Origin: Lachnospiraceae bacterium
GTDB lineage: Bacteria; Bacillota; Clostridia; Lachnospirales; Lachnospiraceae
NCBI GenBank assembly: GCA_017482485.1
Contig: JAFUMV010000064.1
Coordinates: 1 to 34,306 of the forward strand
Length of the DNA stretch: 34,306 nt
Reading direction: 5' to 3'
Each line of letters opens with the position of its first letter. Position 1 is the stretch's first letter. The position numbers and the translations under genes were made by a program. The notes beneath the pieces were generated by a model. The model worked only from the letters and a program-made list of their open reading frames with translations, had not been told where the DNA came from and ran no database searches. Below are positions 14,600-33,034 of the stretch, piece by piece.

Positions 14600-17164
14600 A
14601 TGAGTTTAGTAGAGAAAGTTTTTGGTACCCATAGCGAAAGAGAACTCAGAAGAATTGAGCCTATTGTAAAAAAGATTGAGGATCTTCGCCCGACGATGCA
14701 GGCCTTGACAGATGAGCAGCTGCGGGATAAGACAAAGGAATATAAGAAGCGTCTGGCGGACGGTGAAACACTGGATGATCTTTTGCCGGAAGCATATGCG
14801 ACTGTCCGTGAAGCGGGCCGCCGTGTGCTGAATATGGAACATTTCCATGTGCAGCTGATTGGTGGTGTTATTCTGCATCAGGGACGTATCGCAGAGATGA
14901 AAACCGGTGAAGGTAAGACATTGGTTTCCACACTGCCCGCATATTTGAATGCGTTGACAGGGCGTGGTGTACATGTCGTAACGGTTAACGATTATCTGGC
15001 ATCCCGTGACGCGCAGTGGATGGGCGCCATTCATGAATTCCTTGGACTGAAAGTCGGCGTTGTATTAAACAGTATGAAGCCGGAAGAACGCAGAGCTGCT
15101 TATGCCTGCGATATCACTTATGTGACCAACAATGAGCTGGGATTTGACTATCTGCGCGATAACATGGCGATTTATAAAGAACAGCTTGTTTTAAGAGATC
15201 TGCATTATGCGATTATCGATGAAGTGGACTCTGTCCTGATCGATGAAGCGCGTACCCCTCTGATCATTTCCGGTTCCAGCGGCAAATCCACAAGTCTTTA
15301 TCAGGCCTGCGATATTCTCGCAAGGCAGTTAAAGCGCGGTGCCGATGTGGAAGATTTAAGCAAGATGGACATCATTATGGGTGTTGAACAGGAAGAGACC
15401 GGAGACTTTGTTGTCAATGAGAAGGATAAGGTGCTCAATCTGACTGCACAGGGTATTTCCAAGGTTGAGAGATTTTTCAATATCGAGAACCTGGCGGATC
15501 CGGAAAATCTGGAAATCCAGAATAACATCATTTTAGCGCTGCGTGCGCATCATCTGATGCATCGCGACAAAGACTATGTGGTGAAGGACGACCAGGTACT
15601 GATCGTTGATGAATTTACAGGCCGTATCATGCCCGGCCGTCGTTATTCTGATGGTCTGCACCAGGCCATTGAGGCAAAAGAGCGCGTGAAGGTAAAGCGT
15701 GAGAGCAAAACGCTGGCGACCATTACTTTCCAGAACTTCTTCAACAAGTTCGAGAAGAAGGCCGGAATGACAGGTACCGCTTTGACAGAGGAAAAGGAAT
15801 TCCGTGATATTTACGGCATGGACGTTGTGGAAATTCCCACGAATCGTCCGATCGCAAGAATTGATCAGCATGATGCTGTTTACAAAACGAGAAAAGAGAA
15901 ACTGGGCGCGATCGTTGATGCGATTAAGGAAGCCCATGCGAAGGACCAGCCCGTGCTGGTTGGCACCATTACGATCGAGGCTTCCGAAGAACTTTCCGGA
16001 CTGCTTCGCAGGGAAGGCATTCAGCACAAGGTACTGAATGCGAAATTCCATGAACTGGAGGCGGAAATCGTTGCGGATGCAGGTATTCACGGTGCGGTTA
16101 CCATCGCTACCAATATGGCGGGCCGTGGTACCGATATCAAGCTGGATGATGAGGCCAAGGCGGCCGGCGGCTTAAAGATTATCGGTACAGAACGTCACGA
16201 ATCCAGACGTATCGACAATCAGCTGCGCGGACGTTCCGGACGTCAGGGTGACCCCGGTGAATCCAAGTTCTTCATCTCCCTGGAAGACGATTTGATGCGT
16301 CTGTTCGGTTCCGAAAAGATGATTTCCATGTTCAACGCTCTGGGAATTCCGGAAGGACAGGAAATTGAGCACAAGATGCTGACCAAAGCCATCGAAAATG
16401 CGCAGAAAAAAATTGAGGCAAATAACTACGGTATCAGAAAGAATCTGCTGGAATATGACCAGGTTATGAATGAGCAGCGTGAAATCATTTACGCTGAGCG
16501 GCACCGCGTATTAAATGGCGAGAGCATGCGCGATGTGATTTACAAGATGATTACGGATATTGTGGACAACACAGTGGACATGGTAATCGGTGAGGATTCC
16601 GATGTTGATGAATGGAATTTCAGAGAATTAAATACACTGCTTTTGCCCATCATTCCGTTGGCTCCGATTACGAAAGAGAGAGTCAGCAGCCCCAAAAAGA
16701 ACGGACTTAAGCAGCAGCTGAAAGAAGAAGCGGTAAAGTTTTATGAAGCAAAAGAAGCGGAGTTTCCGGAAGCGGAAATGATCCGTGAGGCTGAGCGCGT
16801 GATTCTTTTGAAAGTAATCGATAAAAAGTGGATGACGCATATCGATGATATGGATCAGCTGCGGCAGGGAATTGGTCTGCAGGCATATGCGCAGAAAGAT
16901 CCGCTGGTTGAATATAAGATGAACGGTTATGAGATGTTTGAAAATATGACAAACAGCATCAAAGAAGATACCGTTCGCGTTCTGTGCCACATCCGTATTG
17001 AACAGAAGGTGGAGCGAGAACAGATGGCTAAGGTAACCGGTACGAATAAGGACGAATCCGGTCCGAAGAAGCCTGTGAAAAGGGAAAAAATCAAAGTTTA
17101 CCCCAACGATCCCTGTCCCTGCGGAAGCGGCAAAAAGTATAAGAACTGCTGCGGACGTCATTAA
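14600..17164 (+). CDS. secA: Preprotein translocase ATPase SecA
   Basis: Motor of the Sec pathway that drives unfolded preproteins through SecYEG at the cytoplasmic membrane face. The protein is 854 residues, full length. NBD1 has Walker A in [13 protein letters not shown] (GEGKT 103-107) and Walker B DEVD at 207-210. The preprotein-crosslinking domain follows, then NBD2 with [23 protein letters not shown] and [13 protein letters not shown]. The C-terminal SEC-C zinc motif is [13 protein letters not shown] (Cys839, 841, 850, 851). ATG 14600 has GGAG at good spacing; an in-frame TTG at 14585 lies upstream of that site. prfB follows 93 bases later on the same strand with no terminator between, so the two may share transcripts. 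Confidence 0.97.
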
Positions 17165-17257
17165 ACTGTGCCCGTTCTATGGCTTAACTGTTTCTAAGAT
17201 GTGAGTTGACGGCTGCCGCAGTCTGAACGAAAATGTGAACAAGAGGAAATTGAAAAT

Positions 17258-18391
17258 ATGGCTATGGTGGAACTTGATCAGATGAAGTTCGAACTGCAGG
17301 GTTATGAGACAACTTTGCAGGAAGTTATCGATTCTCTGGATCTTGACGGAAAGAGCAAACGGATTGAAGAACTGGAGATGGAAATGGAAGCTCCGGGCTT
17401 TTGGGATGATCCGGATTCTTCAAACCGCAAAATGAAAGAATTAAAGAATTTAAAGGATACCAAGGAGCTCTGTGAAAAGCTCAAAACCCAGTATTCGGAT
17501 ATCGAAACCCTGATAGAAATGGGCTATGAAGAGGATGATCCGGATATGGTGGAAGAAACAAGAGCAGAGCTGGATGAGTTCATCAATGAATTGGAAGAAC
17601 TTCGAATCGGCACCCTGCTTTCCGGTGAATATGATAAGAATGATGCGATCCTAAAACTTAATGCCGGTGCGGGGGGAACAGAGAGCTGTGACTGGTGCGG
17701 TATGCTGTACCGCATGTACACCAGATGGGCGGAAAAGAGAGGATTTTCTGTAGAAGTGCTGGACTATCTGGACGGTGAAGAAGCCGGTATCAAGTCCGTT
17801 ACCTTCCAGGTGAATGGTGAGAATGCCTACGGCTATCTGAAATCGGAAAAGGGCGTACATCGTCTTGTTCGTATTTCCCCTTTCAATGCCCAGGGCAAAC
17901 GTCAGACCTCCTTCGTGTCTCTGGACGTCATGCCCGATATCGAAGAGGATCTGGATATTGATATTAATCCCGAAGACCTTCGTATCGATACCTATCGAAG
18001 CAGCGGTGCGGGCGGTCAGCATATCAACAAGACTTCTTCCGCGATCCGTATCACCCACCTTCCTACGGGCATCGTGGTACAGTGTCAGAATGAGCGTTCT
18101 CAGTTCCAGAACAAGGATAAGGCCATGCAGATGCTGAAAGCGAAACTGTATCTGTTAAAGCAGGAAGCGAATGCGGAGAAGCTTTCCGATATCCGCGGTG
18201 AAGTGAAGGATATTGCATGGGGCAATCAGATCCGTTCTTACGTTCTGCAGCCGTATAAGCTTGTAAAGGATCTGCGCACCAATCAGGAAGTGGCAAATGC
18301 GGACGGCGTGCTGGACGGCGGTCTGGATCCTTTTATCAATGCATATCTGAAATGGATCAGTGCAAGAAAGCCTGAGGAAGAGAATGCCTGA
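17258..18391 (+). CDS. prfB: Peptide chain release factor 2, no programmed frameshift
   Basis: Class I release factor that reads UGA and UAA stops and triggers peptide release. The protein is 377 residues in one continuous frame. The stop-recognition tripeptide SPF is at 207-209 (RISPFNAQGKR) and the catalytic GGQ at 252-254 (SGAGGQHINKTSSA). In many bacteria prfB has an in-frame TGA near codon 26 with a +1 shift at CTT TGA C. Here the equivalent place (17333-17347) reads TCT CTG GAT CTT GAC, in frame, so RF2 autoregulation by frameshifting is absent. Start ATG 17258 (second ATG at 17264) follows AGAGGA. A terminator closes the unit. Confidence 0.95.
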   Translation: MAMVELDQMKFELQGYETTLQEVIDSLDLDGKSKRIEELEMEMEAPGFWDDPDSSNRKMKELKNLKDTKELCEKLKTQYSDIETLIEMGYEEDDPDMVEETRAELDEFINELEELRIGTLLSGEYDKNDAILKLNAGAGGTESCDWCGMLYRMYTRWAEKRGFSVEVLDYLDGEEAGIKSVTFQVNGENAYGYLKSEKGVHRLVRISPFNAQGKRQTSFVSLDVMPDIEEDLDIDINPEDLRIDTYRSSGAGGQHINKTSSAIRITHLPTGIVVQCQNERSQFQNKDKAMQMLKAKLYLLKQEANAEKLSDIRGEVKDIAWGNQIRSYVLQPYKLVKDLRTNQEVANADGVLDGGLDPFINAYLKWISARKPEEENA

Positions 18392-18440
18392 AGAGGGTCT
18401 GTAATACAGACGGATTAAAGGAAAATTGTGTATGAAAGTG

Positions 18441-18480
18441 TGGACAGGAGACTGATAATGAAGTTTCCTGTCCATTTTTT
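18441..18480 (+). terminator. Intrinsic terminator after prfB
   Basis: TGGACAGGAGACT (18441-18453) pairs with AGTTTCCTGTCCA (18462-18474) with minor mismatches, followed by six T. Confidence 0.9.
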
Positions 18481-18619
18481 GAGATAGGAAAGTCCTCCGG
18501 ATTTCTATAGCCTAAAAAAGCCCCTGCGATGGATCGCACCGCGAAAATCTATTTTTGTAGAAAATTGACAAAAAAAGCGAAACAAATTTTTATATAATGA
18601 CAAAATTGATGTTTGGGGA

Positions 18620-18648
18620 TTGCCAGATAAAAAGACATATGGTAATAT
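18620..18648 (+). promoter_or_regulatory. Promoter of the sugar ABC transporter operon
   Basis: TTGCCA (18620-18625), 17-base spacer, TAATAT (18643-18648). Transcription would start near 18655, just upstream of the operator cluster. Confidence 0.5.
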
Positions 18649-18662
18649 TTGACTGTAAGAAA

Positions 18663-18700
18663 TGGAAACGTTACCGAAAACGATACCGACAACGTTTCCA
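18663..18700. promoter_or_regulatory. LacI-family operator cluster, three CG-centred boxes
   Basis: Outer arms TGGAAACGTT (18663-18672) and AACGTTTCCA (18691-18700) are perfect inverted repeats. Three AACG-like boxes have CG centres at 18669, 18681 and 18693, exactly 12 bases apart. The CG-centred A/T pattern is characteristic of LacI/CcpA-family operators. Lying just after the promoter, it could act as a roadblock. The LacI-type regulator at 22098-23150 is the likely ligand, with CcpA an alternative. Confidence 0.7.
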
Positions 18701-18728
18701 ATAAATTGCAGAGAAAGGGAGACATGTT

Positions 18729-20156
18729 ATGAAAAAGAAATTATTAAGTTTAGTGCTCGGCACAGCAATGGTTACCACATTACTGGCAGGTTGCGGTTCT
18801 ACAAGCACAGAAGCACCTGCAAGCGAAGCTGCTGAAGTTGAGAGCGAAGCTGTTGAGACACCTGCAGCTGAGTCTGAAGCAGCAGAAAGTGAAGTGGCAG
18901 AAGCACCTGCAGCAGAAGCTGGCGATGGCGCAGTTTATTATTTGAACTTCAAGCCCGAACAGGCTGAACAGTGGGAAGCACTGGCTGAAGTTTATACTGA
19001 AGAGACCGGTGTTCCGGTTACCGTTGTTACTGCATCAAGCGGTACATATGAATCTACTCTGAAGTCCGAAATGGCTAAAGAGGAAGCTCCTACATTGTTC
19101 CAGGTTAACGGTCCTGTAGGTCTTGCTACATGGAAAGATTACTGCTATGATCTGAAAGACAGCGATGTTTATAAGAACCTGTCCAGCGATGATTTCGCTC
19201 TGGTGAATGAAGATGGTTCCGTATCCGGTATCGCATATGTTATCGAAACTTATGGTATCATTTACAATAAGACTCTGCTGAATGACTATTTTGAAACAGA
19301 AGGTGCAGTTGCTACAAGCGTAGAAGAAATCAACAATTTCGATACCTTTAAGGCTGTTGTAGAAGATATTCAGGCTAAGAAAGATGAGCTCGGCATTCTG
19401 GGCGCATTCACCAGTGCAGGTATGGACGCTTCTTCCGACTGGAGATTCAAGACTCACCTTGCTAATATGCCTATCTATTATGAATACAAGGCTGACGGCA
19501 TCAGCTCTACCGATGCTATCAAAGGTACATATCTTGACAACTACAAGGCTATCTGGGATCTGTACATCAACAATGCAACATGCGAACCCAGCCTCCTTTC
19601 TTCCAAGACAGGTGAAGATGCTGCTTCCGAATTCGCTTTAGGGGAAGCAGTATTCTACCAGAACGGTACATGGGCATACGGCGATATCGCTGCTGCTGAA
19701 GAGATCTCTGATGAAGAACTCGGCATGCTTCCTATCTACATCGGTGGTGAAGGCGAAGAGAATCAGGGTCTGTGCACAGGTTCTGAGAACTACTGGTGTG
19801 TAAATGCAAAGGCTGATCAGGCTGATATTGATGCTACATTGGCATTCATCAACTGGGTAGTTACCAGCGATGCAGGAAGATCTGCTCTTGCAAATGACAT
19901 GGGCTTTGTAACTCCTTTCACAACAATGGCTGACTATCTGCCTGCTAACCCGCTGGTAGCAGCAGCTAACGAAGATATCGCAGCAGGCCATACAGCAGTA
20001 ACCTGGAACTTCACAACCATGCCTTCCGAAGAGTGGAAGAACGGCGTTGGTTCCGCATTGCTTGAGTATGCTCAGGGCACAGGCGAATGGGATGCAGTTG
20101 TAACAGCATTCGTAGATGGCTGGGCAACAGAAGCTGCAGCTGCAAAGGCAGAATAA
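18729..20156 (+). CDS. Sugar ABC transporter substrate-binding lipoprotein (CUT1)
   Basis: Extracellular solute-binding protein (family 1), anchored by lipid to the outer face of the membrane, delivering a sugar or oligosaccharide to the two permeases downstream. It is 475 residues: signal peptide ending in the lipobox LAGC with Cys22 as lipidation site, then a ~40-residue low-complexity Ala/Glu/Ser/Pro linker, then the binding domain from about residue 68 (VYYLNFKPEQAEQWEALAEVY). The C-terminal part has YWCVNAKADQADIDATLAFINWV, typical of CUT1 binding proteins. GGGAGA precedes ATG 18729. Ligand unknown. A stem-loop follows the gene, before the permeases, which should make it the most abundant subunit. 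Confidence 0.9.
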   Translation: MKKKLLSLVLGTAMVTTLLAGCGSTSTEAPASEAAEVESEAVETPAAESEAAESEVAEAPAAEAGDGAVYYLNFKPEQAEQWEALAEVYTEETGVPVTVVTASSGTYESTLKSEMAKEEAPTLFQVNGPVGLATWKDYCYDLKDSDVYKNLSSDDFALVNEDGSVSGIAYVIETYGIIYNKTLLNDYFETEGAVATSVEEINNFDTFKAVVEDIQAKKDELGILGAFTSAGMDASSDWRFKTHLANMPIYYEYKADGISSTDAIKGTYLDNYKAIWDLYINNATCEPSLLSSKTGEDAASEFALGEAVFYQNGTWAYGDIAAAEEISDEELGMLPIYIGGEGEENQGLCTGSENYWCVNAKADQADIDATLAFINWVVTSDAGRSALANDMGFVTPFTTMADYLPANPLVAAANEDIAAGHTAVTWNFTTMPSEEWKNGVGSALLEYAQGTGEWDAVVTAFVDGWATEAAAAKAE

Positions 20157-20199
20157 GGAAATACCTGTTCAGCTGTCAGGCGGTTGAGAAAACAATACA

Positions 20200-20227
20200 G
20201 GGTGGGCAGTTATGCCCACCCTTTTTT
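20200..20227 (+). terminator. Internal terminator between binding protein and permeases
   Basis: GGGTGGGCA (20200-20208) and TGCCCACCC (20213-20221) form a perfect 9-bp stem with a 4-base loop, followed by six T. It sits inside the operon, only 19 bases before the first permease start, so it must be partly read through unless the permeases have another promoter. Confidence 0.85.
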
Positions 20228-20245
20228 AAAGAAAGAGGAAAAGGT

Positions 20246-21088
20246 ATGGAGAAAGCAATTAAGAGGTATTTCCCAATTTTTGTATTACCCACAATGCTGG
20301 CCTTTATTTTGGGATTTATTGCACCTTTTATCATGGGTATCTATTTATCCTTCTGTAAATTCACAACGGTAACGGATGCGAAGTTTATAGGATTGGAAAA
20401 TTATAAAAAGGTATTTACAGACCCCACGTTCGTACATGCTTTATGGTATACTGCATTGTTTACGGCTGTAACTGTGGTTCTGATCAATGTGCTGGCATTT
20501 GCAGTTGCGTGGTTTTTGACGAAGGGGATTAAAGGAACCAATATTTTTCGTACAGTATTTTTTATGCCCAACCTGATTGGCGGTATCATTCTGGGATATA
20601 TCTGGCAGCTTTTGTTAAACGGTATTCTGATGCAGTTTAACAGAACGCTGACCTACTCTGCAACTTATGGTTTCTGGGGACTGGTCATTTTGATGTGCTG
20701 GCAGCAGGTCGGCTATATGATGATCATTTATATTGCCGGTATTCAGAATGTTCCCGGAGATCTGTTGGAAGCGGCCAAGATTGACGGAGCCAATTCCAAA
20801 CAGATTCTGACCAAGGTGACTCTTCCTATGGTAATGCCCTCCATTACCATATGTACTTTTCTGACATTGACAAACTCATTCAAACTGTTTGACCAGAACC
20901 TGGCACTGACAAATGGTGAGCCTTCCAATATGTCAGAAATGCTGGCGCTGAATATCTACAGCACATTTTATGGCCGTGCCGGATGGGAAGGTGTGGGTCA
21001 GGCTAAAGCAGTCATTTTCTTTATACTTGTTGCAGCGATTGCATTGACGCAGAACTATCTGACCAGAAGAAAGGAGGTACAGCAGTAA
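20246..21088 (+). CDS. Sugar ABC transporter permease, MalF/UgpA type
   Basis: Membrane-spanning subunit of a CUT1 carbohydrate importer. It is 280 residues with about six hydrophobic helices; the first is near residues 10-35 (FVLPTMLAFILGFIAPFIMG). The cytoplasmic EAA loop that contacts the ATPase reads LLEAAKIDGANSKQILTKVTLP. FMPNLIGGIILGYIWQ is typical of the MalF-like member. ATG 20246 has GAGGAAAAG upstream; the open frame continues upstream through the binding protein's end and the terminator, so that extension is rejected. The stop overlaps the start of the second permease by one base, so the two are translationally coupled. Confidence 0.92.
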   Translation: MEKAIKRYFPIFVLPTMLAFILGFIAPFIMGIYLSFCKFTTVTDAKFIGLENYKKVFTDPTFVHALWYTALFTAVTVVLINVLAFAVAWFLTKGIKGTNIFRTVFFMPNLIGGIILGYIWQLLLNGILMQFNRTLTYSATYGFWGLVILMCWQQVGYMMIIYIAGIQNVPGDLLEAAKIDGANSKQILTKVTLPMVMPSITICTFLTLTNSFKLFDQNLALTNGEPSNMSEMLALNIYSTFYGRAGWEGVGQAKAVIFFILVAAIALTQNYLTRRKEVQQ

Positions 21089-21954
21089 TGGCTAAGAAAG
21101 CGAAAGATGATGTGAGCCGGGTAAGAAGAGCAAAGCACGGAACAGTGCTGACGGTATTTTTCAGCCTACTGTCCATTGCTTATGTGTACCCGATTATTCT
21201 TGTTTTTATTAACTCCTTTAAGAAAAAAGCCTACATCAGCAGGAAGCCTTTTGCTATCCCCACAGGCAAAATGTTTGTTGGGCTGGAAAATTACATCAAT
21301 GGTATTGAGAAGACAGGATTGATAGACGCCTTCTTTGTATCGCTGTTTATCACAGTATTTTCCGTATTGGTAATTGTGGTGTGTACTTCAATGTGTGCCT
21401 GGTATATCAGTCGCGTACATAATAAAATGACAAGTACAATTTATTATCTGTGTCTGTTTTCCATGATCGTACCTTTTCAAATGGTAATGTTTACATTATC
21501 CAAAATTGCCAATATGCTGCATCTTAGCAATCCGGTAGGCCTGATTATTGTATACCTGGGATTTGGTGCGGGCCTTTCAGTATTCATGTTCTGCGGCTTC
21601 TGTAAAAGTATTCCGCTGGAAATCGAAGAGGCGGCAATGATCGATGGCTGTGCCCCGCTGCAGACTTTCTTTCAGGTAGTACTTCCAATTATGAAGCCTA
21701 CCTGCATTACAGTTGCAATCTTACAGACCATGTGGATCTGGAATGACTATTTGCTTCCATATCTGGTAATTGACCTGAAGCGATGGAAAACGATTCCGAT
21801 AGCGGTACAGTATCTGCGCGGCGGATACGGCTCCATTGATATGGGTGCCATGATGGGTGTTTTGGTCCTTGCGATTATTCCCATCATTGTATTTTATATC
21901 TCCTGTCAGAAATATATCATCGAAGGTGTTGTGGCCGGAGCGGTGAAGGGCTGA
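21088..21954 (+). CDS. Sugar ABC transporter permease, MalG/UgpE type
   Basis: Second membrane subunit of the CUT1 importer, 288 residues with six predicted helices. The EAA loop reads EIEEAAMIDGCAPLQTFFQVVLP. The MalG-like features are YPIILVFINSFKKK near the N terminus, IWNDYLLPYLVI and a C-terminal KYIIEGVVAGAVKG. AGGAGG is just upstream of ATG 21088, inside the first permease gene. No ATP-binding subunit follows, so a shared MsmK/MsiK-type ATPase encoded elsewhere probably energises the complex. The next plus-strand gene is the LacI regulator. Confidence 0.92.
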   Translation: MAKKAKDDVSRVRRAKHGTVLTVFFSLLSIAYVYPIILVFINSFKKKAYISRKPFAIPTGKMFVGLENYINGIEKTGLIDAFFVSLFITVFSVLVIVVCTSMCAWYISRVHNKMTSTIYYLCLFSMIVPFQMVMFTLSKIANMLHLSNPVGLIIVYLGFGAGLSVFMFCGFCKSIPLEIEEAAMIDGCAPLQTFFQVVLPIMKPTCITVAILQTMWIWNDYLLPYLVIDLKRWKTIPIAVQYLRGGYGSIDMGAMMGVLVLAIIPIIVFYISCQKYIIEGVVAGAVKG

Positions 21955-21967
21955 TTTAACAATCATC

Positions 21968-21997
21968 TTGCAAATCGGCTGAAAATCATGTTAAACT
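21968..21997 (+). promoter_or_regulatory. Candidate promoter of the lacI-type gene
   Basis: TTGCAA (21968-21973), 18-base spacer, TAAACT (21992-21997). It lies between the second permease and the regulator. Confidence 0.4.
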
Positions 21998-22030
21998 GGA
22001 TACAACATCAGAAGATAAGTGTTGGGTTTA

Positions 22031-22066
22031 AAAAGGTCTGCATCGGCATTGCCTGCAAGACCTTTT
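22031..22066 (+). terminator. Stem-loop before lacI-type gene
   Basis: AAAAGGTCT (22031-22039) and AGACCTTTT (22058-22066) form a 9-bp stem with an 18-base loop. It could terminate the transporter transcript or attenuate the regulator transcript; the T-tract is only four bases. Confidence 0.55.
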
Positions 22067-22097
22067 GAATTCGGCATCGAAGATAGGACTATATGAT

Positions 22098-23150
22098 ATG
22101 GGAGAAATAACGATAAAGGATATAGCCAGATTGTGCAATGTCGGTGTCAGCACTGTTTCAAGGGCCATCAATAATCATCCCGACATTACTGCGGAAACAA
22201 AGCAGCGCATCATGGACACTATACAGGAGTATGGTTATGTGCCCAACAACAGTGCCAGAAATCTAAAGCGGACAGATGCAAAGTGTATTGCGATTCTGGT
22301 TAAAGGCATGACGAATCCTTTTTTTGCAGACATGATTCAGGTAATGGAAGAATGTATACAGAAGAAAAAGTATGCAATGGTCATGCGCCATGTCGAGTTT
22401 GATGAAGATGAGGTAGATATCGCTCTGGAGCTGATTAAGGAAAAGCGGCTGAGAGGGATTGTTTTTCTGGGAGGATATTTTCATTCCAATGAGAAACTGG
22501 AAAAGATTCAGGTTCCGTTTATTCTGAGTACGGTAGGCTGTCCGCCTGAGAATATGAGCAGAAATTTATATTCTTCGATATCGGTTGATGACTGTAAGGA
22601 AAGTTATCGTATGACAGAGTATCTGATCTGCCAGGGAAAGCGCAGGATTGCAATTCTGACTGCTACGGAAGAGGATGGAAGTATCGGTAGCATGCGTCTG
22701 CAGGGATACCGAAATGCTCTGGCTGCATATGGAATTGAAGAACGGCCTGCGTTGATTCGTTATATGCACAGTGGTCGGGCGGAATATTCCATGGAAAACG
22801 GCTATAGTCTTACACAGGAACTGATTAATCTGAATGAGGAATTTGATGCAATTTTTGCAATTTCTGACGTAATGGCAATCGGTGCCTGTCGTGCACTGCA
22901 CGATAGCGGAATACGGGTACCGGAGGATATATCGGTAGCCGGTTTTGACGGACTTACGATGGGGGACTATTTCATTCCTGCTATTACAACCATGCGTCAG
23001 CCGGCAGTTGAAATGGCGCATGCAACGATGGAACAGCTTTTTGCAGTCATCGGCGGCAAAAAAGAGCATCAGCACATTGTATTTGAAGCGCAGCTTTTGG
23101 AAAAAGAATCAGTGAAAAAAGCGTTGGAACGTATCGCTGAAATGGAATAA
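22098..23150 (+). CDS. LacI/GalR-family transcriptional regulator
   Basis: DNA-binding sugar-responsive regulator of 350 residues. The N-terminal helix-turn-helix and hinge read ITIKDIARLCNVGVSTVSRA, then IMDTIQEYGYVPNNSARNL (to about residue 55), as in LacI/CcpA. The periplasmic-binding-protein-like effector domain starts at IAILVKGMTNPFFADMI and includes RRIAILTATEEDG, FDAIFAISDVMAIGACRAL and ISVAGFDGLTMGDYF. ATG 22098 with AGGA upstream is chosen over the TTG at 22065. It is downstream of the transporter it probably controls; the operator cluster at 18663-18700 is the likely target. Effector unknown, presumably the imported sugar or a derivative. Confidence 0.92.
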   Translation: MGEITIKDIARLCNVGVSTVSRAINNHPDITAETKQRIMDTIQEYGYVPNNSARNLKRTDAKCIAILVKGMTNPFFADMIQVMEECIQKKKYAMVMRHVEFDEDEVDIALELIKEKRLRGIVFLGGYFHSNEKLEKIQVPFILSTVGCPPENMSRNLYSSISVDDCKESYRMTEYLICQGKRRIAILTATEEDGSIGSMRLQGYRNALAAYGIEERPALIRYMHSGRAEYSMENGYSLTQELINLNEEFDAIFAISDVMAIGACRALHDSGIRVPEDISVAGFDGLTMGDYFIPAITTMRQPAVEMAHATMEQLFAVIGGKKEHQHIVFEAQLLEKESVKKALERIAEME

Positions 23151-23172
23151 GATGAATAATGCAAAACGGATG

Positions 23173-23204
23173 AAAAAAGCAGGCTTAAGAGGCCTGCTTT
23201 TTTT
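23173..23204. terminator. Bidirectional terminator overlapping the DUF975 gene end
   Basis: AGCAGGC (23178-23184) pairs with GCCTGCT (23192-23198) with a 7-base loop, an A-run before and a T-run after. It ends the lacI-type gene and the convergent DUF975 gene, whose last eight codons lie within it. Confidence 0.88.
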
Positions 23205-23904
23205 CAATCAGATCAAGATAAAAGTTTGCGTAAGTCTGCTGCTTATAAGGAAATAAAAACAGGTTGCCTATGCCGCAGCTCAAGGTTCCAAGCAAAGACA
23301 GAGGAAGAAAACTGAGCATCAGATAAAAATAACGGCCTTTGTTTTTCTTCATCAGCTTGCGGGAAGCCCTCAGACATTCAACAGCCTCCATTTCCGGAAA
23401 GTCCAGCATAATAAAATAAACCTGCGAATATATGATTTCGACATAAAGAGCCAACGGCAAAAAAATCAGAGCAATTGCCAGACCATAAATCAGCCAACGG
23501 TCATTTTTGGAGACGAAAAACTGCTGTAAACATAAGTCCGGCAGGATGGTGGGCAAAAAGAGAAGCAGGGAAGGGAAACACTGAATCTGCATCGCTTTTC
23601 CGGGACTGTTCCAGAAGCCCGTAAAAATGGTATTTGCATGGATCGGATGTCCGCATGCATTAGATAAAAACATACAGGCAATACCGACTTTGAAAATCGC
23701 AAAAAACAAATCCAACAGGAAATTCAGTCCATAATATAAAATGATGCCCAACGGAGGTTTTACGTCAAGTAATGCGCCGGGAACAGTAATCACATACTGC
23801 ATGACCATCAAAGTAACATAAGCGCCGACACAGGATAAATAGTGACCGGTCAGAGCACCTCTGGCTCTGGCCTTTAATTCGGCACTGGTTGCATATACCT
23901 TCAT
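23185..23904 (-). CDS. DUF975-family integral membrane protein
   Basis: Membrane protein of unknown function, 239 residues. It matches the DUF975 pattern: the N-terminal SAELKARARGALTGHY block, several hydrophobic helices, the central EAVECLRASRKLMKKNKGRYFYL segment, and a C-terminal PYKQQTYANFYLDL. About five or six helices are seen. I prefer ATG 23904, with GAGGA about 9 bases upstream, over ATG 23919, whose codon overlaps the upstream stop (ATGA) but has no proper ribosome binding site. It follows the DUF4190-like gene in a two-gene operon. The terminator hairpin runs into its last codons. Confidence 0.8.
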   Translation of the reverse strand: MKVYATSAELKARARGALTGHYLSCVGAYVTLMVMQYVITVPGALLDVKPPLGIILYYGLNFLLDLFFAIFKVGIACMFLSNACGHPIHANTIFTGFWNSPGKAMQIQCFPSLLLFLPTILPDLCLQQFFVSKNDRWLIYGLAIALIFLPLALYVEIIYSQVYFIMLDFPEMEAVECLRASRKLMKKNKGRYFYLMLSFLPLSLLGTLSCGIGNLFLFPYKQQTYANFYLDLIEKKQAS

Positions 23905-23915
23905 TATTCTATTCC

Positions 23916-24311
23916 TCATTTCTGAATCAATTCGGGGTCTATTCCATAGTTTTCCATTATTTCATCAAAAGTCATACCGGTCATCTGCTCATACGCTTCA
24001 TTTAAGGTATTCCAATATTCTTCTGTCATTTGCGGATTGGAAAATACGGTATAAAAAGCTATCACGCAAATCGCCACATTAATGACGAGAGCGCTTCCGG
24101 AAGAAATAACGCCGCCCAGCGCACGGCTGCTCATTTTGCCGGAACCTCTGGACAACATTCCAAGAATAATGGAAAGGCTGCCAAAGATCAGAGGCGGCAA
24201 TATCGTCATGGTAAAAGCAGAGAGAAGAGCAATAATCCCCAATACGAGGGAAGCTGTAGCAAAACCGTTGGGTCTGGAAACGGGCTGCTGCACTTGATTA
24301 TCGTATTCCAT
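23916..24311 (-). CDS. Small DUF4190-like membrane protein
   Basis: A 131-residue membrane protein of unknown function. A short polar N-terminal tail (VQQPVSRPNG) is followed by two hydrophobic helices: one from ASLVLGIIALLSAFT through ILPPLIFGSLSIILGMLSRG, one at GSALVINVAICVIAFYTVF (~75-95). The FATASLVLGIIAL start and SIILGMLSRG are the DUF4190-type pattern. A C-terminal acidic tail has EYWNTLNEAYEQMTGMTFDEIM. AAAGGA precedes its ATG. It is the first gene of a two-gene unit with the DUF975 protein, from a good promoter at 24344-24372. The family assignment is moderate. Confidence 0.65.
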   Translation of the reverse strand: MEYDNQVQQPVSRPNGFATASLVLGIIALLSAFTMTILPPLIFGSLSIILGMLSRGSGKMSSRALGGVISSGSALVINVAICVIAFYTVFSNPQMTEEYWNTLNEAYEQMTGMTFDEIMENYGIDPELIQK

Positions 24312-24343
24312 ATCAAAAAATCCTTTCTATGTATATAGCGTAC

Positions 24344-24372
24344 ATTTTAACACTTTTTTATGCCGGTGACAA
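24344..24372 (-). promoter_or_regulatory. Promoter of the DUF4190-like/DUF975 operon
   Basis: On the minus strand TTGTCA, 17 bases, TAAAAT. It is 32 bases before the start codon and diverges from the tex promoter. Confidence 0.65.
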
Positions 24373-24399
24373 ATGAAAAAAGTGTGAAGCAATCAGGAC

Positions 24400-24429
24400 T
24401 TGAAATGAGGACACCTTTTCCGCTATACT
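24400..24429 (+). promoter_or_regulatory. Promoter of tex
   Basis: TTGAAA (24400-24405), 18-base spacer, TATACT (24424-24429). The leader of ~70 bases holds the palindrome CCGCCATGGCGG (24477-24488 approx.). Confidence 0.55.
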
Positions 24430-24507
24430 TAGGAAAGGGCCTCTGTCATTTTATGGGAGACGGCCGGATGTCATGACCGCCATGGCGGCAGAATAGAGAG
24501 GAAGAAA

Positions 24508-26976
24508 ATGGACATTTTAAACAAGCTCAAAGAAGAACTGAAGGTAGAGCGCTGGCAGGTGGAAGCAGCAGTAAAGCTGATCGATGAGGGAAATACAATT
24601 CCGTTTATTTCCCGCTACAGAAAAGAAGTGACTGGTTCCTTAAACGATGAGATTCTGCGTGATCTTTACGAACGGCTGAATTATCTTCGTAATCTGGAGG
24701 AGAAAAAAGAGTCTGTTTTAAGCAGCATTGAAGAGCAGGGAAAACTGACCGATGAATTAAAGGAAAAAATTCTGGCGGCAGAGACTCTTGTTGTGGTGGA
24801 GGATTTATATCGTCCCTATCGGCCCAAACGAAAGACCCGGGCCAGTGTTGCAAAGGAAAAGGGATTGGAAGGGCTGGCTGAATTTATTTTGGCGCAGCAG
24901 ACGAAGGAAGCTCTGGAAACGGAAGCTGCGAAATATATCAGTGAAGAAAAAGGTGTTTCGGATGTGAAAGATGCGCTGCAGGGTGCAAAGGATATCATTG
25001 CGGAATCGATTTCCGATGAGGCCGATTATCGTATTTTTATCCGTAATCTGACAGTGGAAGAGGGAAAAATTACGAGCACGGCCAAGGATGAGAAGGCAGC
25101 CAGCGTTTATGAAATGTATTATGCCTATGAAGAGCCCGTGAAGAAAGCGGCAGGTCACAGAATACTGGCTCTAAACAGAGGGGAGGCCGAGAAGTTTTTA
25201 ACTGTGAAAGTAGAAGCTCCTGAAGAGCGAATTTTACAGTATCTGGCCAAAAAAGTAATTGTCGGAGAAAATCCGATCACTGAGCCTGTTTTGAAAGAAG
25301 TGATAGAGGACAGCTACAGCAGACTGATTGCCCCCGCCATCGAGAGAGAAATTCGCAATGACCTGACGGAAAAAGCGGAAGAAGGTGCGATTAATGTCTT
25401 TGGCAAAAACCTGGAACAGCTTCTGATGCAGCCTCCTATTGCAGGGAAGGTGGTGCTGGGCTGGGACCCTGCCTTCCGTACAGGCTGTAAACTGGCGGTG
25501 GTAGATCCAACCGGTAAAGTGCTGGATACCAAAGTGATCTATCCCACTGCGCCTCAGAACAAGATAGAAGAGGCGAAAAAGGAATTAAAGCGCCTGATTG
25601 AAAAATATGATGTTTCTTTGATTTCTGTCGGAAACGGAACTGCGTCCAGAGAATCAGAGCAGGTGATTGTGGAACTGATCAAAGAACTCAAAAAACCTGT
25701 GCAGTACGTGATTGTCAATGAGGCAGGCGCTTCCGTATATTCTGCAAGTAAGCTTGCAACAGAGGAATTTCCCAATTTTGATGTGGGACAAAGAAGTGCA
25801 GCTTCCATCGCGCGCAGACTGCAGGATCCGTTGGCAGAGCTGGTAAAAATTGATCCCAAATCCATCGGTGTCGGCCAGTATCAGCATGATATGAATCAGA
25901 AAAAACTGGGTGAAGCTCTCAACGGCGTCGTGGAAGATTGTGTAAATAAAGTGGGTGTGGACTTAAACACCGCCTCGGCGTCCCTTCTGGAGTACATTTC
26001 CGGTGTTTCTAAGACAATTGCAAAAAATATAGTGGAATATCGGGAAACCAACGGACGTTTTACCAACAGAAAACAGCTGCTGAAGGTTGCCAAACTTGGA
26101 CCCAAAGCTTTCGAACAGTGCGCCGGTTTCATGCGCATTCTGGATGGTGATAATCCGTTGGATGCAACCAGTGTTCATCCTGAATCCTATGAAGCAACAA
26201 TGAAGCTTTTGGAAAAGCTGGATCTTACCATGGATGATGTGCGCACACTGCAGGCACAGGCAAAAAAACAGAAGGCAGCAGGAAAGACGAATGGTCAGGC
26301 TGCAGCCGGTCAGACAGCAGGCGCAAAGACCGGTGATGGTGTACACAGCAGCAATGCCGGTAAGAATAAAAATGACAGACGCCAGAAACAGATCGTCATT
26401 CGTAACACCAATACTGCCATGGGCAAGGCATTGGCAGCAGCGATGAATGGGATGGTGCTGGAAGAAAATGGTAAAAACGCAGGAAAAAATGCAGCAAATG
26501 CAGGAAATAATGCGAACAATGTAAAGAGCGCTCAAAACGCTGCAAGTGAGGCTGCAGCGGCGGCATCCGCAACGGCAGTGCTGGAGCATAAAATCCGCGA
26601 CAAAAAGAAACTGGCAGAAGAACTTGGCATTGGCGAAATCACCCTGACGGATATTCTCAAAGAGCTGGAAAAACCCGCCCGTGATCCCAGAGAAAATATG
26701 CCTGCGCCAATTCTGCGCAGCGATGTTCTTGATATGAAGGACTTAAAACCCGGCATGGTTTTAAAAGGAACCGTGCGCAATGTCATTGACTTCGGTGTTT
26801 TTGTGGATATCGGTGTTCATCAGGATGGTCTGGTGCATATTTCTCAGATCACAGAACGTTATATCAAGCATCCTCTTGAAGCAGTGAGTGTTGGGGATAT
26901 TGTGGATGTGAAGGTGCTGGACGTGGATCTGAATAAGAAACGCATCAGCCTGACCATGAGACTGGACAAAAAGTAA
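24508..26976 (+). CDS. tex: Tex-family transcription accessory protein with low-complexity insert
   Basis: RNA-binding transcription accessory protein of the Tex/Spt6-like family. It is 822 residues, longer than the usual 720-770. The N-terminal helical domain begins IPFISRYRKEVTGSLNDE. The YqgF/RNase H-like domain has GWDPAFRTGCKLAVVD (~315-330) and SVGNGTASRESE. The helix-hairpin-helix region has LNTASASLLEYISGVSKTIAKNIV (~490-515). The S1 RNA-binding domain is at ~746-822 (LKGTVRNVIDFGVFVDIG). Between the HhH and S1 parts, residues ~580-690 form an Ala/Asn/Gly/Lys-rich insert not normal for Tex, while LGIGEITLTDILKELEKPARDPRE after it is normal. GAGAGGAAG precedes ATG 24508. Confidence 0.93.
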   Translation: MDILNKLKEELKVERWQVEAAVKLIDEGNTIPFISRYRKEVTGSLNDEILRDLYERLNYLRNLEEKKESVLSSIEEQGKLTDELKEKILAAETLVVVEDLYRPYRPKRKTRASVAKEKGLEGLAEFILAQQTKEALETEAAKYISEEKGVSDVKDALQGAKDIIAESISDEADYRIFIRNLTVEEGKITSTAKDEKAASVYEMYYAYEEPVKKAAGHRILALNRGEAEKFLTVKVEAPEERILQYLAKKVIVGENPITEPVLKEVIEDSYSRLIAPAIEREIRNDLTEKAEEGAINVFGKNLEQLLMQPPIAGKVVLGWDPAFRTGCKLAVVDPTGKVLDTKVIYPTAPQNKIEEAKKELKRLIEKYDVSLISVGNGTASRESEQVIVELIKELKKPVQYVIVNEAGASVYSASKLATEEFPNFDVGQRSAASIARRLQDPLAELVKIDPKSIGVGQYQHDMNQKKLGEALNGVVEDCVNKVGVDLNTASASLLEYISGVSKTIAKNIVEYRETNGRFTNRKQLLKVAKLGPKAFEQCAGFMRILDGDNPLDATSVHPESYEATMKLLEKLDLTMDDVRTLQAQAKKQKAAGKTNGQAAAGQTAGAKTGDGVHSSNAGKNKNDRRQKQIVIRNTNTAMGKALAAAMNGMVLEENGKNAGKNAANAGNNANNVKSAQNAASEAAAAASATAVLEHKIRDKKKLAEELGIGEITLTDILKELEKPARDPRENMPAPILRSDVLDMKDLKPGMVLKGTVRNVIDFGVFVDIGVHQDGLVHISQITERYIKHPLEAVSVGDIVDVKVLDVDLNKKRISLTMRLDKK

Positions 26977-28943: not shown

Positions 28944-29378
28944 ATGATCATAGAGAGTTTCAGCGCGGCGGATACATACGCCTTTGGAAAGAAAATAGGA
29001 GAAGAAGCCTGTAGAGGACAGGTCTATACGCTGATCGGGGATCTGGGCGTTGGGAAAACCGTTTTTACCCAGGGAGTTGCAGCCGGTCTTGGTATTACAG
29101 AACCTGTAAGCAGTCCCACATTCACAATTGTACAGGTTTATGAGGAAGGCAGGCTGCCTTTCTATCATTTTGATGTGTACAGGATTGGTGATGTTGAAGA
29201 AATGGAAGAAATCGGGTATGAGGACTGCTTTTATGGAGAAGGACTCTGCCTGATCGAGTGGGCGAATCTGATTGAAGAGATTTTACCGGAGCATTACACC
29301 GAAATAAAGATTGAGAAGGACCTGGAGAAGGGGTTTGATTACAGGAAAATCACAGTGACCCGGATCGGAAATGATTGA
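28944..29378 (+). CDS. tsaE: tRNA t6A37 threonylcarbamoylation ATPase TsaE
   Basis: P-loop ATPase that works with TsaB and TsaD to make the N6-threonylcarbamoyl adenosine at position 37 of ANN-decoding tRNAs. The protein is 144 residues, as usual. Walker A GDLGVGKT is at 32-39; VSSPTFTIVQVYE (switch-like) and FYHFDVYRIGDVEEMEEIGYEDCF follow, ending in LCLIEWANLIEEILPE, all diagnostic. ATG 28944 overlaps no gene; AAGGA lies in the end of the previous gene. tsaB follows 26 bases later. The three t6A genes tsaE, tsaB and tsaD are all in this operon. Confidence 0.96.
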   Translation: MIIESFSAADTYAFGKKIGEEACRGQVYTLIGDLGVGKTVFTQGVAAGLGITEPVSSPTFTIVQVYEEGRLPFYHFDVYRIGDVEEMEEIGYEDCFYGEGLCLIEWANLIEEILPEHYTEIKIEKDLEKGFDYRKITVTRIGND

Positions 29379-29404
29379 TAAATTGCTTCGGAATGGAGAA
29401 GAAT

Positions 29405-30178
29405 ATGAAAATATTAGCACTGGACAGTTCCGGACTGGTGGCGAGTGTGGCGCTGGTTGAAGATGATGTACTGATCGCGGAATATACAACGGATTATAAA
29501 AAAACACATTCCCAGACACTTTTACCCATGCTGGATGAAATCAGAAAAATGGTGGATCTGGATCTTTCTTCCGTCGACCTGATCGCGGCGGCGGCGGGCC
29601 CCGGCTCCTTTACCGGACTTCGTATCGGTTCCGCAACGGCAAAGGGGCTTGGACTGGCACTGAATAAGCCATTGGCGGCAATTCCTACCGTGGATGCTCT
29701 GGCCTGGAACCTGTATGGCTGTGACAAAGTGATCTGCCCGATGATGGATGCCAGACGCAGTCAGGTTTATACCGGTCTGTATACCTTTGAAAGAATAAAA
29801 GAAACGATGCAGTTTCAGGTGATAAAGAAGCAGTGCGCCATGCCTGTGGAAGAACTGATTAATGAGCTGAATACGCTGGGAAAAGAAGTGATCTTTCTGG
29901 GAGATGGCGTGCCTGTTTATGAAAAGCAGATTCGGAGCGGCGTGCAGGTGCCTTACAGCTTTGCGCCTGCCGGCTGTAACAGACAGCGTGCGGCTACCAT
30001 TGCCATGCTGGGAGCGGAATATGCCAAAGAGGGCGCACTGATATCTGCGGGGGACTTTACGCCGGAATATCTGCGTATGTCTCAGGCTGAGCGGGAACGA
30101 ATGGAAGCTTCCGAAGCGGAAAAGGAGCGCATGAAAGCCGGAATTACACCGGCGTCCGCACATACGGCAGGAGAATGA
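29405..30178 (+). CDS. tsaB: tRNA t6A37 threonylcarbamoyltransferase subunit TsaB
   Basis: Non-catalytic ASKHA-fold partner that dimerises with TsaD in t6A synthesis. The protein is 257 residues. The start is MKILALDSSGLVASVALVEDD and the core has DLIAAAAGPGSFTGLRIGSATAKGLGLAL and CPMMDARRSQVYTGLY, typical of TsaB. The C-terminal ~30 residues are a charged Glu/Arg/Met-rich tail (RERMEASEAEKERMKAG) beyond the usual end. ATG 29405 has GGAGAAG upstream; the open frame starting at 29375 has none. rimI follows with a 3-base gap, as in many Firmicutes. Confidence 0.96.
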   Translation: MKILALDSSGLVASVALVEDDVLIAEYTTDYKKTHSQTLLPMLDEIRKMVDLDLSSVDLIAAAAGPGSFTGLRIGSATAKGLGLALNKPLAAIPTVDALAWNLYGCDKVICPMMDARRSQVYTGLYTFERIKETMQFQVIKKQCAMPVEELINELNTLGKEVIFLGDGVPVYEKQIRSGVQVPYSFAPAGCNRQRAATIAMLGAEYAKEGALISAGDFTPEYLRMSQAERERMEASEAEKERMKAGITPASAHTAGE

Positions 30179-31070: not shown

Positions 31071-32003
31071 ATGCTTGAAGTTTGTCTTTTAGGAACCGGA
31101 GGAATGATGCCCCTGCCTTATCGGTGGCTGACATCCTTAATGGTTCGATATAATGGAAAAAGTATTTTGATTGACTGCGGTGAGGGAACCCAGATTGCAA
31201 TGAAAGAAAAAGGATGGAGTCCCAAACCGATCGATATCATATGTTTTACACATTTTCATGCAGATCATATCAGCGGCCTGCCGGGAATGCTTCTCACAAT
31301 GGGGAACGCAGAACGGACACAGCCGCTTCTTCTCATTGGTCCGAAAGGCCTTACCAAAACGGTGAATGCGCTTCGCGTCATCGCGCCGGAGCTGCCGTTT
31401 AAAATTGAATGTGTGGAAATTTCAGAAACGGAACAGACCTTTTCGTTTGATGGCTTTAAAATAGAAACGTTTCGGGTGAATCATAATGTTACCTGTTACG
31501 GCTATAGCATCGTGGTGGAGCGCAAAGGTAAGTTCCAACTGGATAAGGCCGAATCTCTCGGTATCGAAAAGCGTTACTGGAATAGGCTGCAAAAAGGAGA
31601 AACTCTGGAAATTGATGGAAAAATATACACGCCTGATATGGTGATGGGTGAGACCAGAAAGGGGCTTAAGGTCACCTATTGTACCGATACCAGACCAACG
31701 GAAGGTATCGTGAAAAATGCAGCAGATGCGGATCTTTTTATCTGCGAAGGCATGTATGGAGAACCGGAGAAGAAAGATAAGGCAAAAGAGTACAAACATA
31801 TGACTTTTCTGGAAGCGGCCAATATGGCGAAGCGGGCAGAAGTCAAAAAGCTCTGGCTGACCCATTACAGTCCGTCTCTTGTGCATCCGGAGGAGTTCAT
31901 GGGCGGTGTGCGCAAAATTTTCCCTGATGCAATTGCAGCAAAAGACGGAAGAACCGAAGACCTAATGTTTGAAGAAGATGCAAACGAGGACAAAAAATCA
32001 TGA
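31071..32003 (+). CDS. rnz: Ribonuclease Z
   Basis: Endonuclease that trims the 3' trailer of tRNA precursors lacking encoded CCA. The protein is 310 residues, the usual length. The metallo-beta-lactamase zinc motif HFHADH is at 61-66, within [20 protein letters not shown]. The start [23 protein letters not shown], the C-terminal [35 protein letters not shown] and LTHYSPSL are RNase Z hallmarks. GGGAGG precedes ATG 31071. Its TGA overlaps the tsaD ATG by 4 bases (ATGA), so the two are translationally coupled. Both tRNA-Ser genes downstream lack an encoded CCA, which fits the need for this enzyme. Confidence 0.94.
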
Positions 32004-33034
32004 CAGATGAAAAAAAAGATGTATTGATTCTTGCGATAGAAAGCTCCTGTGATGAGACAGCGGCAGCAGTGGTGAAAAATGGCAGAGAGGTGCTGTCCAA
32101 TGTGATTTATTCTCAGATAGATCTGCACACGCTTTACGGCGGTGTAGTGCCGGAAATCGCTTCCAGAAAACATATTGAAAAAATCAACCAGGTGGTGGAA
32201 AAGGCACTGACCGATGCGGGAGTGACTCTGCAGGAAATCACGGCAATTGCAGTTACTTATGGACCGGGTCTGGTCGGAGCTCTTTTAGTGGGCGTTTCGG
32301 CAGCCAAGGCAATTGCATTTGCAGCGGATAAGCCGCTGGTAGGCGTGCATCATATTGAAGGACATATCTGTGCCAATTATATCGAAAATAAGGAACTGGA
32401 ACCTCCGTTTTTGTGTCTGGTGGTATCCGGTGGTCATTCCCATCTTGTAATGGTAAAAGGCTATGGGGAATACGAAATTCTGGGATGAACCAGAGACGAT
32501 GCAGCCGGCGAGGCTTTTGACAAAGTGGCTCGGGCCATCGGTCTGGGATATCCCGGCGGTCCCAAGGTTGACAAGGTATCCAGGGAGGGAAATCCGGATG
32601 CGATTCATTTTCCCAGGGCAAAAGTAGAGGATAATGTTTATGACTTCAGTTTCAGCGGTCTGAAATCTGCTGTGCTCAATTATATCAATGGCTGTCAGAT
32701 GAAGGGAGAAGAGATTAATCAGGCTGATGTGGCAGCTTCTTTTCAGAAATCTGTGGTGGACGTACTGGTGGATCATTCCATGCACGCAATAAAACAGTAT
32801 GGAATGGAGAAATTTGCCATCGCTGGAGGCGTTGCATCCAATTCTCATCTGCGGGAGGCGTTGGAAAAGGCCTGTGCTGAACAGAACATCACTTTTTATC
32901 ATCCATCTCCGATTTTCTGTACTGACAATGCGGCGATGATCGGAGTGGCAGGTTATTATGAGTATATCAAAGGTGTACGGCATGGCTGGGATTTGAATGC
33001 GGTGCCGAATCTGAGGCTGGGAGAACGAATCTGA
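32000..33034 (+). pseudogene. tsaD: tRNA t6A37 threonylcarbamoyltransferase TsaD, interrupted by in-frame TGA
   Basis: Catalytic iron-binding ASKHA subunit of t6A synthesis, normally essential. The frame would give 344 residues, normal length, with all family motifs: [13 protein letters not shown] (13-25), [19 protein letters not shown], metal ligands in HHIEGH (His118, His122), [43 protein letters not shown] and [11 protein letters not shown]. Codon 163 (32486-32488) is TGA, between EILG and TRDDAAG; a CGA or AGA Arg codon is expected there. Reading stays in the same frame on both sides, so it is one base substitution, not a frameshift. The ATGA overlap with rnz and the 1-base overlap with ispD are intact. 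Either a real nonsense mutation, a sequencing or assembly error, or rescued by suppression; TGA is a genuine stop for many genes here. Confidence 0.9.

Follow-up and report, generated by a model that had tools for sequence, protein, structure and literature searches.

Lone in-frame stop codons have been reported as widespread and short-lived (PMC7918605, excerpted text), and the kind of case described here is therefore already known. According to the excerpts of PMC5289835, the tryptophan tRNA misreads UGA in both E. coli and B. subtilis and a U at the +4 position is said to reduce read-through, and the excerpted PMC7918605 cites a UGA read-through of 6% in B. subtilis carrying a normal prfB. 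The G24A substitution of E. coli tRNA-Trp, the Hirsh change, has been linked to the reading of UGA (PMC13092985, in part). The gene tsaD is classed as essential in E. coli (PMC5013485, in part) and has been retained by Mollicutes from which most other tRNA-modification genes have been lost (PMC4014445, in part). The excerpts of PMC9654439 do not mention that cells can tolerate losing tsaD, and the premature stop treated in the excerpted PMC5013485 concerns dnaX.

The present analysis concerns a stop codon within tsaD of a Lachnospiraceae bacterium whose genome is a draft of 153 contigs, 3,475,556 bases, and 90% completeness. The window, which is the whole stretch of DNA analysed, is 34,306 nucleotides long and constitutes an entire contig (C29) of that draft. 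The features at issue are the following:

17258..18391, plus strand: prfB (RF2, the UGA release factor), intact; TIGR00020 at 532.3 bits, cut-off 370, no internal stop
28944..29378, plus strand: tsaE, intact; TIGR00150 at 127.6 bits, cut-off 60.1
29402..30178, plus strand: tsaB, intact; TIGR03725 at 165 bits, cut-off 69.3
32000..33034, plus strand: tsaD, tRNA N6-threonylcarbamoyladenosine transferase subunit, 344 codons with one internal stop; TIGR03723
32486..32488, plus strand: in-frame TGA at tsaD codon 163, where relatives carry R 67, K 8, Y 7, C 4, Q 1, M 1 (n=88)
32000..32488, plus strand: 162-aa tsaD product if UGA terminates, covering TIGR03723 positions 1-153
32525..33034, plus strand: possible re-initiation ORF of 169 aa with a GTG start, GAGG lying 11 bases upstream

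The tsaD frame opens with the ATG at 32000 and its terminal stop ends at 33034, and as a single uninterrupted frame it fails at the TGA of codon 163. Read through that codon, the gene reaches 461.9 bits with the TIGR03723 profile (cut-off 296.1), spans positions 1-313 of 314, and contains exactly one stop. When the two halves were searched separately, they matched TIGR03723 at 1-153 and 155-313 and the Pfam TsaD family at 1-130 and 132-263, so that the frame and the family match continue on both sides of the TGA, as the preliminary description had reported. The lesion consists of this single stop, with neither a frameshift nor a second stop, and by its sequence it is a private, isolated, single-base nonsense codon. 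The preliminary description also regarded the remainder of the t6A pathway as complete, which was borne out: tsaE and tsaB are both intact and above their cut-offs in the window, and tsaC lies on another contig of the same genome. A TIGR03723 profile search of the 90%-complete genome, a check that the preliminary description had called for, found no second tsaD copy; the other match to the profile is tsaB and was rejected as a candidate.

Codon 163 was compared among 92 tsaD loci from relatives, which reduced to 88 distinct sequences after the removal of 4 duplicates, and no stop was found inside the aligned tsaD of any of the 88. The expectation that arginine is the usual residue at this position was upheld (67 of the 88 distinct relatives). 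The claim that the ancestral arginine codon lay one step from TGA also stood, but the preference for CGA did not: the nearest relative (G005; L004/L027), with 92% protein identity, carries AGA at codon 163, so a change from AGA to TGA is no less simple than one from CGA, and AGA is as likely as CGA to be the ancestral codon. The column itself is fairly variable, ranking 76 of 344 by entropy, and only 2 of 24 other tsaD codons that lie one step from TGA are equally variable. Within the genus, all 13 genomes have a tsaD match over the cut-off (this genome when read through), and the stop occurs in this genome only. A wider search of 397 genomes of the family gave 389 with a tsaD match, 375 of them above the cut-off, and among the 150 matches listed a stop was present in two tsaD genes, the TGA considered here and a TAA in the genome G182. 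The latter genome is a draft of 450 contigs at 79% completeness, and its lone in-frame TAA (L171, contig C36) falls just before the motif KFAIAGG. When 23 family genomes with a missing or poor tsaD were searched with a relative's TsaD, 13 were matched and 10 were not; inspection of ten stretches for apparent absence of the gene showed that six contain withheld bases and that in the other four, free of such bases, the tsaB contig is short or ends nearby, and absence there consequently means little. In the nearest relative, the end of the sister contig (L195/L196, G005:C10, about 16800-24813) bears two copies of secA-prfB in opposite orientation that are about 85% identical, a doubling that is either a real duplication or the product of a chimeric contig.

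Against the nearest relative, dN was 0.043 upstream of the stop and 0.054 downstream, and dS was 1.23 and 1.24, respectively; dS is thus near saturation, so that the comparison is with another species and dN mostly reflects the time before the TGA. Of 15 window genes compared with a stretch from G005, ten had a match and five had none. With changes polarised using 11 other members of the genus, the branch leading to this genome carries amino-acid changes at 2 of 162 codons before the stop and 9 of 181 after it (Fisher p 0.066), and the sister branch carries 3 and 2, respectively. The excess after the stop may be a weak hint of relaxed constraint on the 3' part of tsaD, which by a rough estimate would have been unconstrained for at most about 6% of the branch.

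The reading of UGA elsewhere in the genome was surveyed in 61 stretches totalling 1,018,773 of the 3,475,556 bases (29% of the genome), which were picked by tRNA or gene hits or by contig number rather than at random, using a scan that detects same-frame stops, not frameshifts, and requires coding-like sequence on both sides. The 747 coding segments in this sample end in TAA (386), TGA (254), or TAG (107), and among 77 same-frame stop candidates judged by eye, the tsaD codon was the only TGA inside a gene. ARAGORN read 42 tRNA matches, 41 with a normal anticodon and one with an odd loop, and assigned the anticodon TCA to none of them, in a draft tRNA set that is incomplete and lacks, for example, tRNAs for Phe, Tyr, and His. 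The odd case, a tRNA-like sequence to which ARAGORN assigned no normal anticodon, is at 12780-12852 of L154 (G000:C72). In the 90%-complete genome, the best match to tRNA-Sec scored 42.5 bits, below the cut-off of 47, and proved to be the Ser tRNA of the window, and the best match to selB reached 67.4 against a cut-off of 242.25. The 75 bases from the UGA onward contain no stable hairpin and fold no better than shuffled sequences (z-score 0.00). Genome-wide recoding of UGA was rejected, given that TGA terminates 254 of the 747 segments, RF2 is intact, and a TCA tRNA was absent from the 42 read; the preliminary description had likewise found no indication of it. In the tRNA-Trp(CCA) of this genome, position 24 is A (A24) and a G27-U43 pair stands at the top of the anticodon stem. 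Among 29 tRNA-Trp(CCA) genes including this one, taken from the loci that matched best when 60 genomes were searched and hence biased towards query-like sequences, 14 have A24 and 9 lack the standard 27-43 pair, features that have been linked in print to the reading of UGA. With A24 in 14 of 29 genes, the feature is family background and not an adaptation to the tsaD stop.

Three of the 77 candidates were kept: the tsaD TGA and two TAG codons, the second of them only as probable. The first TAG lies in a Y-family polymerase-like gene (L234, G000:C8, 3970-3972, minus strand), the parts of which around the stop match PF00817 and PF11799. The upstream part of this gene has a match in 10 of 12 other genomes of the genus, one of them weak, and none in two, including the nearest relative; the nine strong matches are open frames of 507-553 aa, and all nine have TGG (Trp) at the aligned codon and no stop. 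The second TAG (L241, G000:C16, 1336-1338, minus strand) is probably a third lone stop, in an epimerase-like gene whose upstream part matches positions 1-61 of 240 of Pfam Epimerase, whose downstream part matches no Pfam family, and which is absent from all 12 other genomes of the genus. Other candidates were set aside: the stop at 18211 of L154 terminates a TIGR02452 gene in the normal way, the match extending to the end of the profile; that at 4120 of L265 was read as a gene boundary, given the GTG start immediately after it; and the remainder resemble either adjacent genes, the second starting shortly downstream of the stop, or frames outside genes. Lone stops in this genome are not special to TGA or to tsaD, which lessens the weight that the tsaD case carries, and they fit the usual background level of errors in the consensus or of stray mutations.

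The preliminary description had listed a sequence error, a young nonsense mutation, and read-through or re-initiation as possible meanings, and these are still the right set of options. We favour a single-base consensus error of the draft assembly, at a probability of about 0.5, and we infer the wrong base itself: one miscalled base would have turned an arginine codon (AGA or CGA) into TGA, tsaD would be intact in the living cells, and a special mechanism would be unnecessary. This reading is favoured because no other copy was found of this gene, which is regarded as essential in E. coli and is retained in Mollicutes with few other tRNA-modification genes left, because the stop is absent from all 88 relatives and present in one of 13 genus genomes, because the gene bears no other damage (its frame is intact and dN is 0.043 on the 5' side of the stop and 0.054 on the 3' side), because other lone nonsense codons (TAG) occur in the assembly as a general error rate would give, and because tsaD of the fragmented draft G182 also bears a lone TAA. 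Against it, the TGA sits on a fairly variable column, where a random error need not land, and the distribution of branch changes (2 before and 9 after, p 0.066) is a weak hint; moreover, the genes with TAG stops are missing from some or all of the other genomes of the genus, so those stops could be real mutations in dispensable genes. As the genome is a 153-contig draft, an isolate for resequencing may not exist. The main rival, somewhat less probable than an error, is that the stop is a real, very young nonsense allele and that UGA is misread at its ordinary rate, with tRNA-Trp as the simplest agent, which would yield enough full-length TsaD for the strain to survive. The residue at the aligned position varies (R, K, Y, C, Q, M), which suggests that Trp may be tolerated, A24 is present in the tRNA-Trp(CCA) encoded here, the +4 base after the TGA is A and not U, and the downstream sequence is conserved. 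However, A24 is common in these tRNAs, RF2 is intact, the stop has been seen in one assembly only, the structure after it is at chance level, and leakiness of UGA cannot account for the TAG stops elsewhere in the assembly. A stronger form of this reading, in which UGA163 is a fixed allele of the species, all TsaD arises from near-cognate decoding of UGA by the A24 tRNA-Trp, and the level of t6A follows read-through efficiency, appears quite improbable; if true, it would couple a housekeeping tRNA-modification enzyme to translational fidelity.

It is unlikely that the allele is a real null or near-null, with cells living without TsaD or the mutant representing a dying sub-clone. Nine of the 11 polarised changes on the branch fall after the stop and 10 of the 23 family genomes picked because their tsaD was missing or poor remained unmatched, but the excess after the stop is not significant, tsaB, tsaE, and tsaC have all been retained along with a frame free of shifts or further stops, every one of the 13 genus genomes has tsaD over the cut-off when this one is read through, and the unconstrained period of the 3' part is limited to the small fraction of the branch roughly estimated above. 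Explanations beyond error, a leaky allele, or a null together take up only a sliver of the probability. Among them, programmed recoding, whether through selenocysteine, a suppressor tRNA with anticodon TCA, or a local signal for read-through, is very improbable: Cys does occupy the column in 4 of 88 relatives, and a suppressor tRNA may be missing from the assembly given its incomplete tRNA set, yet tRNA-Sec and selB fall below their cut-offs, none of the 42 tRNAs has the anticodon TCA while TGA ends about a third of the sampled segments (254/747), and RNA structure after the TGA is at chance level. A two-piece TsaD made by re-initiation has close to negligible probability. The GTG at 32525 is indeed 37 bases past the stop, as previously noted, and it opens a 169-aa ORF preceded by GAGG at 11 bases, but that GAGG lies within the codons of invariant residues 170-172 and need not be an evolved start signal, and the two pieces would split one family domain mid-way.

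The likeliest origin of the tsaD TGA is thus an erroneous base or a very recent mutation, not a new reading of the genetic code. If it is an error, it is a reminder that when a draft assembly shows an isolated stop in an essential gene, the reads should be checked before recoding is claimed; if it is real, it would show that a gut bacterium can manage on very little of an enzyme that is near-universal and normally essential, and that a gene interrupted by an in-frame stop need not be dead.

Among described systems, the tRNA-Trp(CCA) of this genome resembles the leaky tRNA-Trp(CCA) with G24A or a 4-bp anticodon stem in the excerpted PMC13092985 in having A24, and differs in that its 27-43 position is a G-U wobble and not open; A24 is moreover common among the tRNA-Trp genes read (14 of 29), and any decoding of UGA by this tRNA would be putative. 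The tsaD stop differs from the isolated stops of PMC7918605 (excerpted text) in that those were kept when shared by at least two species to limit artefacts, whereas the present one was seen once in a draft genome; it resembles them in being a single stop beyond which the gene is still conserved.
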